Origin: Bacilli bacterium
GTDB lineage: Bacteria; Bacillota_I; Bacilli_A; RF39; UBA660
Reading direction: 5' to 3'
Length of the DNA stretch: 64,000 bases
Assembly (NCBI GenBank): GCA_017432825.1
Contig: JAFRIJ010000011.1
Span: 98,591 to 162,590 of the forward strand
The notes below the pieces were generated by a model that did not search any database, had not been told where the DNA came from, and saw nothing but the letters and a program-made list of their open reading frames with translations. The position numbers and the translations under genes are program-made. Each line of letters starts with the position of its first letter. The first letter of the stretch is position 1. Positions 740-54,120 of this stretch are shown here, piece after piece.

Positions 740-3700
740 TATTATCACCTACATCTTTAGTAATGAAATCTATCAGTTTTATTAGTGTTCCTGTACTTTC
801 TACTATATGATAACCCATATTATTTTTTATTTCTTTCGTCATTTCTCTTGTTAAATTAGTTAATCTTAATGTGCTTTGATCTGATACTCCTTTACCTATC
901 CATATTCCTTCATTTGTATTATAGAAGTCTTTAAACCAAGATTCATATGCATATGTTTTTATTTTATTAGCGTCTTCTACTGCAATAATAGATATATGCT
1001 CATATTTCTTTAGTAATTTATTAAATTCTTCTATTTTTTTATTATCATTTATTTTAGCTATAAATTTATCTAATCCATATATTAATATTATTCCTTCTAC
1101 TTGTTGTTTTTGTTCTATTAAACTATTTATTTGTTCTTGTAATTTATTAAATATTTCTTCTATATTTTCATTATAGTAATTATTATGATATTCTTTAGTT
1201 ATTGGTAATAGTTTAGATGTATCAAATATATATAGGTTAGTTTTTAAATATTTAAATAAGGCAATTAAACTTAATACAAAGTTTTTAGTATTATCTAGTT
1301 TATTAGATGTTATAATATTTCCTTGGTTTGCTAGAAAATCTATTGTAGATATTTCTAATTCTTTTTTGCTTATTCCTATTGGAATATTATGTATATTTGT
1401 TAGACTACTTTGTATTTCTTCAAAGGATACTATATTTGGTAATATAGGTATTTTTTTAGCAACTTTTTTATTTATTTCTTTTTGTTTATTTACAAATTCT
1501 ACTATATAATCATTTAATTTATCTTCATCTTCTATAATAGTTGCTGTTTGAAATTCATGTACTCCATCATTTTTTAGTACTCCTCTGCCAAAATTATCCC
1601 TTGGATATATTTTTGTTTTTGTACCAAATATTGATGTGTAATCAAATTGATCTTTTAATTTGAATGCGTAATTATTTTTACAGTTTGATGTTATTTTACT
1701 ATTTACTGAGTTAGTGGCATTTGCTGTTAATATAAATATTATTCCATATCTTTCAGAATCTCTTACTAATTCTGGTAATACATCATATAGATTTTGATTT
1801 GCTTCATAAATAGAATCATAATTATTTAATATTACTAACATTATAGGTAATTTATTAGGACTATTTTTAATGTAGTTTATATATTCTCCTCCATAGTCTG
1901 CAAACAGTTTTTTTCTAGAAGCTATTTCATTTCTAATTAGTTTTATTAAATTATTAAATTCTTCATCTTCCTCTTGATATACTATTCCACCTATATGTGG
2001 TAATTTACTATATTTTCGTAGTGATTCTGATCCATAATCAACTATATATACATTTATTTCTTCTGAAGTATGATTTTTTGTTATGGAATATATTAATGTA
2101 TTTATTAAATATTCTCTTTCACTACCATCATTCCCATATATTATAGTATTTCCATGCTCTAGTAAATTATATTTTACTATTCCTTGTTCTTGTTTTTCTG
2201 GAGCGTCATATTCTCCTATTACTGCTTCTATATTATATGGTGTATGTGTTACATTATATTTTTTTTCTAGATTATCTACTAGTATTATACTAGGAATATT
2301 TTCTAACCATAGTCTTTTTGCTTTTTTACCTGCTTGTTTTGCTACATTTATTATTGATTTTAGTATATTACCTAGTTGTTCTCCTTGTGGTTCTATTCTT
2401 ATACTATTACCAGCTTGAACTCTTTTTATGTAATTACCGCAATCATCTATAAAGTTAATGCTTTTATCTATCTGTTTTACTATTTTTTCTGATGGATAGT
2501 ATTTAGCACCACACCATCCTGATTGTCCTAGGGCATAATATTCATCGTATCCTACTTGCAAGTAGAATCTTCCTGCTTGTTTTAAATATGCTGCATCTGG
2601 TTTCTTTAACATTTCTTTACTATCTTGTTCATCTTGTACTTTTAAACATACTTTAAATTTAGAGTTAGACCATATTTGATCGTTTACTACACCACTAGGT
2701 TTTTGAGTTGCTAGAATAAGGTGTACTCCTAAAGAACGTCCTATACGTGCTACACTTATTAGATTATCCATAAAATCTGGTTGTTGACTTTTTAATTCAG
2801 CGAACTCATCACAAATTATAAATAAATGTGGAATTGGCTCTTTTAATCTTCCTTCTTTATAATATCGTTGATATTTATATATATCCATAGTGCTTTCTTC
2901 TAATATATCTCTTGCTTCATTAAACATATGTTGTCTTCTTTTTACTTCACTATCGATACTTACTAATGTTCTATCCATTTCTGCTTTATCTAAGTTGGTT
3001 ATGGTTCCTGCTAAATGGGGTAAAGATATTCCTGTTGTTTGATTTTCAAATGCTAAAGCTAATCCTCCACCTTTATAATCTATTAGGATAAATGACACAT
3101 CATCAGGACTATAATTTATACACATAGATAATATATAAGTTATTATAAATTCTGATTTACCACTACCTGTAGTACCTGCTATTAATCCATGAGGTCCATG
3201 ATATTTTTCATGTAAATCTAAGAACATTAAATCTCCTTGTTCATCTACTCCTATTTCAGCTCTTAAACTTGATGTAGAATCATTAGTATTCCATCTATTT
3301 AAAATATTTAATTGTTCAACTTTACCAACTTTCTCCATTTCCATAAATGTTATAGCATCAGGCAATTGTTTTAATCCTTCTTCAAATTCTATTGGTATAT
3401 TAGATAATAGATTTGTAATACTCATCATATCAATATTATAATTTATTTCATCATAGAATATTATTTGTTCTTGCTTTTCGTAAGAATTTTTTAATATACC
3501 ACCTTGATTATTAATTCCTAAAGATATAAAGTTATTACATTTACTAGGCAATTTACTTAATCTTTCTTCTAGTAATACTATACTAAAACCTAGGTTTTCA
3601 TCTATTTCAGTGATATTCTTTAAAAAATCAAATCTTTTTATTCTATTATAGTCATCTACAAAAATAATGTAATGTGGTTTAGGAAAATCTTCTTTATTGT

Positions 3701-9293: not shown

Positions 9294-9309
9294 TTGTTAG
9301 TGCTTTTTA
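9277..9309. terminator. Bidirectional terminator between the ASCH gene and trpB
   Basis: CACTAAC at 9284-9290 pairs with GTTAGTG at 9296-9302. There are five As before and a CTTTTT after, so it works for both convergent genes; both stop codons sit in or at the edge of the hairpin. Confidence 0.8.
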
Positions 9310-10457
9310 TTAAATTCTAATACTGTTTGTAAGTCTTTGTCTCCTCTACCTGATAAATTTACTATTATACAGTCAGATATTTTGTATTTTTTTGCTATTT
9401 TTATTGCATATGCTAAGGCATGAGAACTCTCTAATGCAGGAATTATTCCTTCTAATTTTGTTAATAATTTAAAGGCTTTTATTGCTCCTTTATCTGTAAT
9501 ACTATCATAATTAACTCTTTTTATTTTATTTAAATAGGCGTGTTCTGGTCCTATTCCTGGATAATCTAGGCCTGCTGATATTGAATAGGCATCTTTTATA
9601 TTTCCTTTTTTATCTTGCATAATATAGGTTTTCATACCATGTATTATTCCAATTTTATTGTTGGCGATTGCTGATGCATGTTTATTTGATTTAATACCTA
9701 ATCCTGCTCCTTCTACTCCATATATATCTACTTTTTCTTTAATGAAACTATTAAATAATCCAATGCTATTGCTCCCTCCACCTACGCAGGCAATTATAGC
9801 TTTAGGTAACTTATGTTCTTGTTTTATTATTTGTTTTTTTGCTTCTTCTCCAATTACTTTTTGAAAGTATTTTACCATTTCTGGATATGGACTTGGTCCT
9901 ACCGCTGAACCTATTAAATAAAAGGAATCTTTATGTTGCAATAGATAATCAAAAGCTTCATCTACGGCATCTTTTAGTGTTTTATTTCCTCTTGTTACTG
10001 ATACTACATTTGCTCCTAATAATTTCATTTTTTCAACATTTACATGCTGCCTTTCTATATCAACACTTCCCATAAATATAGTGCATTTTAAGTCTAATAA
10101 ACTGCATACTGTAGCAGTTGCTACTCCATGTTGACCTGCTCCTGTTTCAGCAATAATATGATTCTTTTTCATTCTTTTTGCAAGCAGTGCTTGACCTAAG
10201 GCATTATTTATTTTATGTGCTCCTGTATGATTTAAATCTTCTCTTTTTAAATATATTTTAGCGCCACCTATATATTCTGTTAATTTTTCTGCATAATATA
10301 ATGGTGATGGCCTTCCTACATATTGCTTTAAGTAATACTTATATTCTTTAATAAACTTTTTATCTTTTATAGCTTTTTTAAATTCATTTTCAATTTCTTT
10401 TAATTTTTCTTTTAATTCTTGTGGTACATATTGTCCACCAAATTCTCCATAATTCAT
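9297..10457 (-). CDS. trpB: Tryptophan synthase beta subunit
   Basis: 386 residues from the ATG at 10457 (MNYGEFGGQYVP, with GAGGAG seven bases before); an in-frame ATG at 10475 lies right after a TAA and has no ribosome site. The PLP lysine is K82 in HTGAHKINNALGQA, the catalytic Glu is E104 in AETGAGQHG, and GGGSNS near 228 is the phosphate-binding loop. It converts indole and serine to tryptophan. No trpA or other trp gene is adjacent, so it may salvage indole; this holds only for the window. The gene lies behind a Trp-codon attenuator (10540-10735) and near tRNA-Trp. Confidence 0.95.
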   Translation of the reverse strand: MNYGEFGGQYVPQELKEKLKEIENEFKKAIKDKKFIKEYKYYLKQYVGRPSPLYYAEKLTEYIGGAKIYLKREDLNHTGAHKINNALGQALLAKRMKKNHIIAETGAGQHGVATATVCSLLDLKCTIFMGSVDIERQHVNVEKMKLLGANVVSVTRGNKTLKDAVDEAFDYLLQHKDSFYLIGSAVGPSPYPEMVKYFQKVIGEEAKKQIIKQEHKLPKAIIACVGGGSNSIGLFNSFIKEKVDIYGVEGAGLGIKSNKHASAIANNKIGIIHGMKTYIMQDKKGNIKDAYSISAGLDYPGIGPEHAYLNKIKRVNYDSITDKGAIKAFKLLTKLEGIIPALESSHALAYAIKIAKKYKISDCIIVNLSGRGDKDLQTVLEFNKKH

Positions 10458-10518
10458 TTTTTTCTCCTCTTTCATTTAAATACCTTTTTATTCTTTTCCA
10501 ATTCCAATCACTTTCCAT
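10390..10518 (-). CDS. Possible 42-codon Trp-rich upstream ORF overlapping the trpB start
   Basis: An ATG at 10518 follows a very strong AAAGGAGGTGGC ribosome site, better than that of trpB. The frame encodes MESDWNWKRIKRYLNERGEK and more, with Trp at codons 5 and 7, runs over the trpB start in another frame and stops at a TGA at 10390. It lies after the attenuator terminator, so it would be translated only on read-through transcripts. It may couple trpB translation to Trp supply, or be a relic of a deleted gene start. I do not recognise a family. Confidence 0.4.
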   Translation of the reverse strand: MESDWNWKRIKRYLNERGEKNELWRIWWTICTTRIKRKIKRN

Positions 10519-10539
10519 ATGCGCCACCTCCTTTCATGC

Positions 10540-10575
10540 AAAAAAGCACATGTCGGAAACAATCCATACATGTGC
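10540..10575 (-). terminator. trp attenuator terminator (segments 3:4)
   Basis: Read on the minus strand, GCACATGT (10575-10568) pairs with ACATGTGC (10553-10546) and is followed by six Ts. Two flanking A-T pairs extend the stem to ten. The 5' arm overlaps TGTATGG (10570-10564), which can instead pair with segment 2, giving a mutually exclusive antiterminator. Confidence 0.85.
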
Positions 10576-10610
10576 TTGTGTTACTATTATATTATTTTTT
10601 ATTTAATATT

Positions 10611-10688
10611 TCACGACAAAACCTGTATGGACCAACTCTTCCATACATTCCACCAATTATTTAATTTATTTATATTTAAATAATTCAT
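10611..10688 (-). CDS. trpL: trp operon leader peptide with four Trp codons
   Basis: A 25-codon ORF starts 8 bases after an AGGAGG site. The peptide has Trp at positions 12, 13, 16 and 19 (NNWWNVWKSWS), a density far above that of any other gene here, and ends in TGA at 10611. The Trp codons lie just before and within segment 1 of a four-segment RNA: TGTATGGA at 10647-10640, TCCATACA at 10631-10624, TGTATGGA at 10570-10563 and ACATGTGC at 10553-10546. Stalling at the Trp codons would cover segment 1 and allow 2:3 antitermination. A ribosome reaching the stop would cover segment 2 and allow the 3:4 terminator. This is the logic of enterobacterial trpL. Confidence 0.85.
   Translation of the reverse strand: MNYLNINKLNNWWNVWKSWSIQVLS
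10624..10647 (-). promoter_or_regulatory. Attenuator segments 1 and 2 (pause hairpin / antiterminator half)
   Basis: Segment 1 (10640-10647) and segment 2 (10624-10631) are complementary over eight bases with an eight-base loop. Segment 2 is equally complementary over eight bases, plus two G-U pairs, to segment 3 at 10563-10570. The two pairings exclude one another. Confidence 0.8.
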
Positions 10689-10707
10689 AGTTTTGCCTCC
10701 TAAAATA

Positions 10708-10735
10708 ATTATATGTTTTTTTATTTTTTTGTCAA
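10708..10735 (-). promoter_or_regulatory. trp promoter
   Basis: A consensus TTGACA (10735-10730), a 16-base spacer and TATAAT (10713-10708) on the minus strand. Transcription would start about at the AGGAGG of the leader peptide, leaving a very short 5' end before the leader ATG at 10688. Confidence 0.85.
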
Positions 10736-11271: not shown

Positions 11272-11347
11272 TGGCAGGGGTGGCAAGACTTGAACTCACG
11301 ACATTCGGTTTTGGAGACCGACGTTCTACCAGCTGAACTACACCCCT
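11272..11347 (-). tRNA. tRNA-Trp (CCA anticodon)
   Basis: A cloverleaf on the minus strand: acceptor AGGGGTG with CACCCCT, anticodon stem TCGGT/ACCGA with loop CTCCAAA (anticodon CCA), a T arm with TTCAAGT, discriminator G and an encoded 3' CCA at 11274-11272. It reads the TGG codons used throughout the window, including those in the nearby trp leader peptide. Confidence 0.96.
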
Positions 11348-53483: not shown

Positions 53484-54005
53484 TTAATTTTCTTCTTTTT
53501 GTTTAGAATACAAATCTAAACATATTGATAGGTCTCTTACTACTCCTATCATTCCACCTGCTAGCATTGTAAGTAATCCTTCTCTTGAAGGTATTTTAGC
53601 ATATTCCTTTAATTCATTTACATCAGCTAATTTTCCTTCAACAATTCCTACTTTAACTTCTAGTGCTTTGTGGTCTTTTGCAAAATCACTTATTATTTTT
53701 ACTGGTGCTAATTCATCTTTAGAAAATGATATAGCAGTTGGTCCTTCTAAGTAACTCGCTAAATCATAATCAGTTCCTTCTACTGCTCTTTTAGCTAGTG
53801 TATTTTTATATACTTTGTAATCGGAACCTGATTCTCTTAAGCTTCTTCTTAGTTCATTTACTTCAGAAACTTTCAATCCTCTTGCATTGAATAAAACAAC
53901 AGATTTGGCATTTTCGAATTTATTTTTTATTTCTTCAACTATTGATGCCTTTTGTTCAATTATCTTTGCATTTGCCACTTTTACAGCTCCTTTCTTTAAT
54001 GCCAT
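53484..54005 (-). CDS. rplJ: 50S ribosomal protein L10
   Basis: 173 residues from the ATG at 54005 ([19 protein letters not shown]), which has GAGGGA about seven bases before; the ORF could extend to 54020, but the GAGGGA would then be coding. [20 protein letters not shown] is typical. It anchors L7/L12 to the ribosome. Its ribosome site is locked in a leader hairpin, consistent with L10 autoregulation. Confidence 0.96.
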
Positions 54006-54115
54006 AAATAAATCCCTCATAGAGTGAGGGATAAAAAAGTTCTATATTTTTTTATTCCTCGGTAAGATTTTCAAACTATATAGTCCTTACTGTCTACGGC
54101 ATAACTCTTCAACGT
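54006..54115 (-). promoter_or_regulatory. L10 leader RNA
   Basis: A roughly 110-base structured leader precedes rplJ. ATCCCTCA (54032-54025) pairs with TGAGGGAT (54019-54012), and the second arm contains the rplJ ribosome site. The upstream part includes GTTATGCCGTAGACAG and GAATCT-like segments as expected for the known L10 leader, which L10(L12)4 binds to reduce expression. Confidence 0.7.
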
Positions 54116-54120
54116 TTTAT

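Follow-up and report, generated by a model that had tools for sequence, protein, structure and literature searches.

T-boxes and TRAP are the textbook means of trp regulation in the part of the bacterial tree that holds the Bacilli. Classical trpL leaders, found in enterobacteria and in Actinobacteria (where trp attenuators have been predicted; PMC1262725), consist of a Shine-Dalgarno (SD) sequence, a short ORF with Trp codons, mutually exclusive 1:2, 2:3 and 3:4 pairings, a terminator and a trp gene downstream. Ribosome-mediated attenuation is not new in Bacillota, since His leader-peptide attenuators have been predicted for his operons in Firmicutes (PMC9413887) and an Ile/Leu attenuator with mutant support has been described for ilv-leu of Staphylococcus aureus (PMC5794164). 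The anti-TRAP (rtpA) leader of Bacillus subtilis combines a Trp T-box with rtpLP (Chen and Yanofsky 2003, as cited in PMC11255114); rtpLP contains Trp codons, and its complete translation prevents translation of RtpA (PMC2311275). In rbfL of S. aureus, a nutrient-sensing uORF overlaps the downstream ribosome-binding site; the nutrient is arginine, and stalling blocks the downstream gene (PMC13009471).

We analysed a 64,000-nucleotide stretch of DNA from a Bacilli bacterium (the window), in which a lone trpB is preceded by two Trp-codon uORFs. The leader elements and trpB are all on the minus strand, in the following order of transcription:

10708..10735, minus strand: promoter, TTGACA-16 nt-TATAAT, 12 of 12 consensus matches
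10696..10701, minus strand: SD of ORF1, AGGAGG (sequence motif)
10611..10688, minus strand: ORF1, 25-codon Trp leader peptide MNYLNINKLNNWWNVWKSWSIQVLS with W12, W13, W16 and W19 (sequence and homologous peptides)
10640..10647, minus strand: segment 1, TGTATGGA (pairing with segment 2; covariation)
10624..10631, minus strand: segment 2, TCCATACA, whose partner is segment 1 or segment 3
10563..10570, minus strand: segment 3, again TGTATGGA, antiterminator partner of segment 2 and upper 5' arm of the terminator
10540..10577, minus strand: intrinsic terminator (3:4), stem AAGCACATGT/ACATGTGCTT followed by a T-run (changes on both sides of pairs; folding)
10525..10534, minus strand: extended SD of ORF2, AAAGGAGGTG, kept in nearly all homologous loci
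10390..10518, minus strand: ORF2, a further Trp uORF MESDWNWKRIKRYLNERGEKNELWRIWWTICTTRIKRKIKRN that runs over the start of trpB in the +1 frame (codon conservation)
10464..10470, minus strand: SD of trpB, AGAGGAG, within ORF2 (sequence motif)
9297..10457, minus strand: lone trpB, tryptophan synthase beta subunit (NCBIfam TIGR00263)

The arms of the terminator stem are 10577-10568 and 10553-10544, and the T-run is 10545-10540. The conserved start of trpB is at 10457, which corrects an upstream ATG at 10475, and TIGR00263 identifies the product as a true beta subunit, at 591 bits with a cut-off of 392. Upstream of ORF1, most relatives have promoter-like hexamers similar to those of the window. 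When both strands of the 64-kb window were searched for SD-preceded ORFs of 8-45 codons with at least three TGG codons, just ORF1 and ORF2 were found. The initial annotation of this DNA had described the consensus promoter, the AGGAGG, the 25-codon ORF with Trp at positions 12, 13, 16 and 19, the exclusive pairings ending in a terminator with a T-run, and the octamer common to segments 1 and 3; all of these are present as it stated. It had missed ORF2.

To place the leader in context, TrpB was used to scan genome contigs, and homologs of 70-82% identity came from MAGs labelled 'Bacilli', 'Clostridia', 'Ruminococcaceae' and 'Clostridium'. Besides the window, the attenuator precedes trpB in 23 homologous loci, 20 of them from the contig scan and three (L135, L139 and L141) from whole-genome searches; the leader of L135 was read over its 3' half only. 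Asn10, Trp13, Val15 and Trp16 were invariant in 20 of 20 leader peptides, and Trp12 was present in 16 of the 20; Trp19 is peculiar to the window. When the upstream regions were aligned, as had been suggested for related trpB genes, the segments were found to covary (21-sequence alignment). The loci are related, and cell counts are therefore not independent, with a few events counted many times; read with this in mind, standard pairs made up 94.4% of cells in 1:2, 94.4% in 2:3 and 92.5% in 3:4, and compensatory changes in 2:3 were seen at two positions (10 cells). Covariation of 1:2 and 2:3 was above that of every shuffle, that of 3:4 was above all but 3 of 500, and all three pairings were above all slid controls. 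Five pairs of 3:4 had changes on both sides. The base that follows the TGTATGG core varies in concert across segments 1, 2 and 3 (A-U-A versus G-C-G). At a second position the partner in segment 3 tracks segment 2 (C-G to U-A); segment 1 keeps its G there because this G belongs to the Trp16 codon.

A covariance model of the attenuator scored the window leader at 120 bits. In the genomes of the homologs all strong matches lay at trpB, with just weak ones elsewhere (E 0.02-0.1), and under strict filters no further copies were found in 395 genomes of the class and 392 of the phylum. One weak match, L132, lies upstream of the L012 trpB and is a terminator-like stretch without ORF1 before a cysK-like gene.

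For the leader as a whole the folding energy is -44.5 kcal/mol, and its dinucleotide shuffles reach -25.8 +/- 3.3 (z -5.7); hairpin 1:2 also beats shuffles (z -4.1), as does the terminator 3:4 (-18.4 kcal/mol, z -5.1), and the stability of the antiterminator 2:3 taken alone was not above that of shuffles (z -1.2). We then masked the RNA in silico with a ribosome whose A-site was set on ORF1 codons, using either a transcript ending before segment 4 or the full leader. In the shorter RNA, 2:3 formed with a probability of 0.99, 0.99 and 0.87 with the A-site at codons 12, 13 and 16, respectively, and of no more than 0.02 with the A-site at codon 19 or the stop codon; in the full leader, these last two positions gave the terminator a probability of 0.96-0.97. 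The ribosome-free full leader also formed the terminator (0.96), and the ribosome-free shorter RNA formed 2:3 too (0.95), so that termination without translation would depend on timing as well. With codon 12 masked, the terminator of the full leader was still at 0.65 at equilibrium, so that antitermination must be kinetic or set by codons 13-16. In these models, the position of the stalled ribosome decides between antiterminator and terminator, which is the pattern of a textbook attenuator, and Trp19 would lie past the decision.

Conservation, covariation and folding with a masking ribosome thus all speak for the claim, made from the window by itself, that a Trp leader-peptide attenuator precedes a lone trpB, and we regard ORF1 as very probably a working attenuator. 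We infer the following course of stalling and read-through for this first layer. At scarce Trp-tRNA, a ribosome would stall at Trp12-Trp16 of ORF1 and cover segment 1, segment 2 would pair with segment 3, and the terminator would be prevented. At plentiful Trp, the ribosome would reach the ORF1 stop codon and mask segment 2, and the 3:4 terminator would end transcription; if ORF1 were not translated, 1:2 would form and the terminator would win. Judged by its sequence, this layer has every feature of a classical trp attenuator that is testable here, yet matches no Rfam family: no hit to the enterobacterial Trp leader of Rfam reached the gathering threshold anywhere in the window, and none appeared at the site up to E = 1. 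It differs from classical trpL in being AT-rich, in serving a lone trpB, in having a second Trp uORF behind it and in occurring in Bacilli and Clostridia. From the his and ilv-leu attenuators, with which it shares ribosome-mediated attenuation of amino-acid genes in Bacillota, it differs in the amino acid; no sequence relation to them is shown, and no second uORF has been described for them. In the open-licence literature, to which our search was confined, we found no Trp leader-peptide attenuator in Firmicutes/Bacillota, so priority is not certain.

ORF2 was compared across 27 loci, in which its SD is a near-complete match to the anti-SD. Of these loci, 23 have no length shift at the start; all 23 have TGG as codon 5 and 21 have it as codon 7, whereas codon 6 is free (11 different codons). 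Codon 4 encodes Asp or Glu in 21 of the 23, with T, C, G and A all found as third base; because these changes are synonymous, selection acts on the amino acid and hence on translation. ORF2 spans the trpB start in the +1 frame in 21 of the 27 loci and ends 53-80 nt inside trpB (68 nt beyond the ATG in the window). It is fused in frame with trpB in two loci (L006 and L013) and stops 19-45 nt short of trpB in four (L007, L015, L016 and L141). The 21 loci with the +1 frame show eight different lengths, from 55 to 145 nt, and eight of nine distinct crossing lengths are in one frame (binomial p 0.001). No crossing ORF2 among the 27 loci uses the ATGA-type stop-start frame typical of translational coupling. 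The distance from Trp7 to the trpB ATG is at least about 34 nt across the loci and 40 nt in the window, about the room needed for one stalled and one initiating ribosome. Every match to the ORF2 pattern sits at a trpB, and none was found before other genes. Nowhere in trpB is synonymous conservation higher than at codons 2-13.

In L135, a Lys-rich stretch extends ORF2 to 145 nt before trpB with the +1 frame kept, and adds a third Trp (W5, W7 and W9). Two genomes, G439 (L004/L006) and G440 (L005/L013), have two trpB copies each, both with attenuators; the ORF2 of one copy is out of frame and that of the other is fused in frame to trpB.

Could the ORF1 attenuator be the sole regulator, with ORF2 a by-product that results from a strong SD combined with the +1 reading of the conserved TrpB N-terminus? 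The length and end point of ORF2 vary, as expected of a by-product, and its three inner Trp codons follow from the codons of YGEFGGQY, being largely forced by the conservation of that TrpB sequence. The same explanation does not account for Trp5 and Trp7, which lie upstream of trpB and are conserved around a variable codon 6 and next to a codon 4 that changes synonymously; the frame of ORF2 moreover survives many indels, and ORF2 persists in loci without ORF1. We consider a by-product quite improbable, and ORF2 in all likelihood a genuine Trp-codon uORF, with a confidence equal to that for ORF1.

A positive role of ORF2 was also weighed, in which its translation would open the RNA at the trpB start by coupling, including a long-range helix that joins the ORF2 SD/start to codons 9-13 of trpB. 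For many relatives this helix is predicted between the two sequences concerned, GUGGUGCAUAU (10516-10526) and AUAUGUACCAC (10421-10431), and L139 has one compensated change in it; the in-frame fusions of L006 and L013 would fit coupling. In the window, however, the helix has mismatches, and L141, L007, L015 and the L019 group lack it; trpB segments that were recoded frequently pair just as well, and the ATGA frame of coupled genes is absent. Besides, Trp codons in a coupled uORF would lower TrpB just when Trp is scarce. We found no hairpin hiding the trpB SD in the window, where this SD is 97% unpaired. A positive role is unlikely, if a shade less so than a by-product.

We return to a repressive ORF2 as the second layer, and infer the sign of its effect on trpB. 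On read-through mRNA, ribosomes would load at the strong ORF2 SD. With Trp, they would traverse the SD and start of trpB out of frame and suppress its initiation; without Trp, they would stall at Trp5/Trp7, about 40 nt upstream, and leave the trpB start free. ORF2 has further Trp codons beyond the start of trpB, and stalling there would block trpB. This occlusion and stall-release model is fairly probable in our judgement. The second layer is not uniform: the short and the fused variants of ORF2 are unexplained by simple occlusion or sweeping alone.

By analogy, the second layer may work like rtpLP. As in the rtpA leader, a transcriptional Trp-tRNA device is followed by a Trp-codon uORF that would set translation of the next gene, and ORF2, like rtpLP, has Trp codons and its own SD and lies immediately upstream of a gene. 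The stop codon of rtpLP lies before the SD of the next gene; this feature fails in the ORF2 of the window, and an upstream stop is found only in L007, L015, L016 and L141. Here, in addition, the target is trpB itself, and the first device in the window is a leader-peptide attenuator. The overlap with a downstream ribosome-binding site is shared with rbfL, but the spacing in the present locus should free trpB upon stalling. The best reading of the locus, by this analogy with T-box/rtpLP, would be a novel form of tandem transcriptional and translational Trp-tRNA sensing.

The likeness to the rtpA leader is closest in L016, L020 and L070, which have a T-box in front of ORF2. A T-box replaces ORF1 and the attenuator in all three: L020 and L070 match the Rfam T-box (RF00230) at 102 and 103 bits, and L016 matches at 84 bits, below the gathering score. 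The specifier, read by eye, is TGG (in GAATGGA) in each, and ORF2 is retained behind the T-box in three of three loci. In TrpB trees, all ORF2-bearing genes form one clade (100/100). AU tests weakly rejected a single clade of the T-box rows (p 0.043) and of the attenuator rows (p 0.022), and the front end, attenuator or T-box, has on this ground probably been swapped more than once. L082 and L083, more distant Bacilli trpB loci with a T-box, have behind it a minimal uORF, ATG GGA CC(A/T) TGA (Met-Gly-Pro-stop), with a strong SD and followed by a conserved AGAG.

A search of the window site for a T-box, TRAP or other Rfam element gave no match. T-boxes occur in the window genome, which has eight of them elsewhere, and before related trpB genes; the T-box option was thus present in this genome, and one may ask whether the trpB leader has been mistaken for an attenuator and is really a Trp T-box or a TRAP target. 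A TRAP site has about 11 spaced GAG/UAG triplets, and the leader, counted by reading the sequence, has four only. ORF1 and the four-segment covariation are not T-box features, and there is no Rfam T-box match at the site. Such a misreading is extremely improbable. The initial annotation had given TRAP for Bacillus and T-boxes for many Firmicutes as the trp regulators, and ribosome-mediated attenuation as typical of enterobacteria and some Actinobacteria; this is too strict, as leader-peptide attenuators had already been predicted in Firmicutes for his and ilv-leu.

That annotation had further proposed that the attenuator arose or was acquired independently in this lineage. As put, this is not supported: the same element stands before this trpB lineage in many genomes of Bacilli and Clostridia, and the attenuator cassette appears to travel with trpB, patchily, across the two classes. 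In the tree, the window TrpB groups with those of Bacilli (L002 and L003) and also with G693 and two 'Ruminococcaceae'; the simplest interpretation is that trpB and its leader have moved horizontally together. Within families the gene is patchy: trpB homologs were found in 8 of 145 genomes in the family of G439 and in 2 of 144 in that of G437, which appears to be the window's own family, and no close homolog turned up in 57 further genomes from the window's family. The patchiness, together with the extra Trp19 and a difference at one base of the ORF2 leader, would fit a decayed element that came along when trpB moved horizontally and no longer functions in the window host. We think this very improbable, as the window has kept its promoter, SDs, two uORFs and every pairing intact, and the covariance-model score is that of 120 bits given above.

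trpB is alone not only at this locus. trpA was absent, and IGPS (trpC) had no hit above cut-off, in 20 genomes including the window's own, and 14 of 14 control genomes were positive. Given indole and serine, TrpB can form Trp by itself. With neither trpA nor IGPS in these genomes, indole salvage is probably the role of trpB. The orphan trpB of Mycoplasma californicum is a comparison case (PMC4081997).

Considered together, control of this lone, probably indole-salvaging trpB by charged tRNA-Trp at two layers is likely. On balance, and with less assurance than for either layer, we would go on to regard the M-E-x-D/E-W-x-W uORF as a class of Trp sensor not described before, one that spans the trpB start in a different reading frame, sets trpB translation by stall-release and forms a fixed second layer under an interchangeable attenuator or T-box, in gut Bacilli and Clostridia living on salvaged indole. 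The locus places a ribosome-mediated trp attenuator where T-boxes or TRAP would be expected. The interchange of T-box and leader peptide over the same uORF and gene is a natural experiment on sensor replacement, and an out-of-frame overlapping uORF, if it represses trpB as proposed, would be a simple translational sensor of one charged tRNA. The locus further suggests that small-genome gut bacteria without the rest of the trp pathway regulate their salvage of indole.

Among the loci scanned, a tRNA-Trp gene near trpB was found only in the window and in L016. In the window it lies at 11272-11347 (minus strand), about 0.6 kb from the trpB leader; L016 has two, at 1028-1102 and 1185-1259 (minus strand), about 1.7 kb off. 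The window also contains an ordinary ribosomal protein L10 leader (RF00557) at 53998-54117 on the minus strand.
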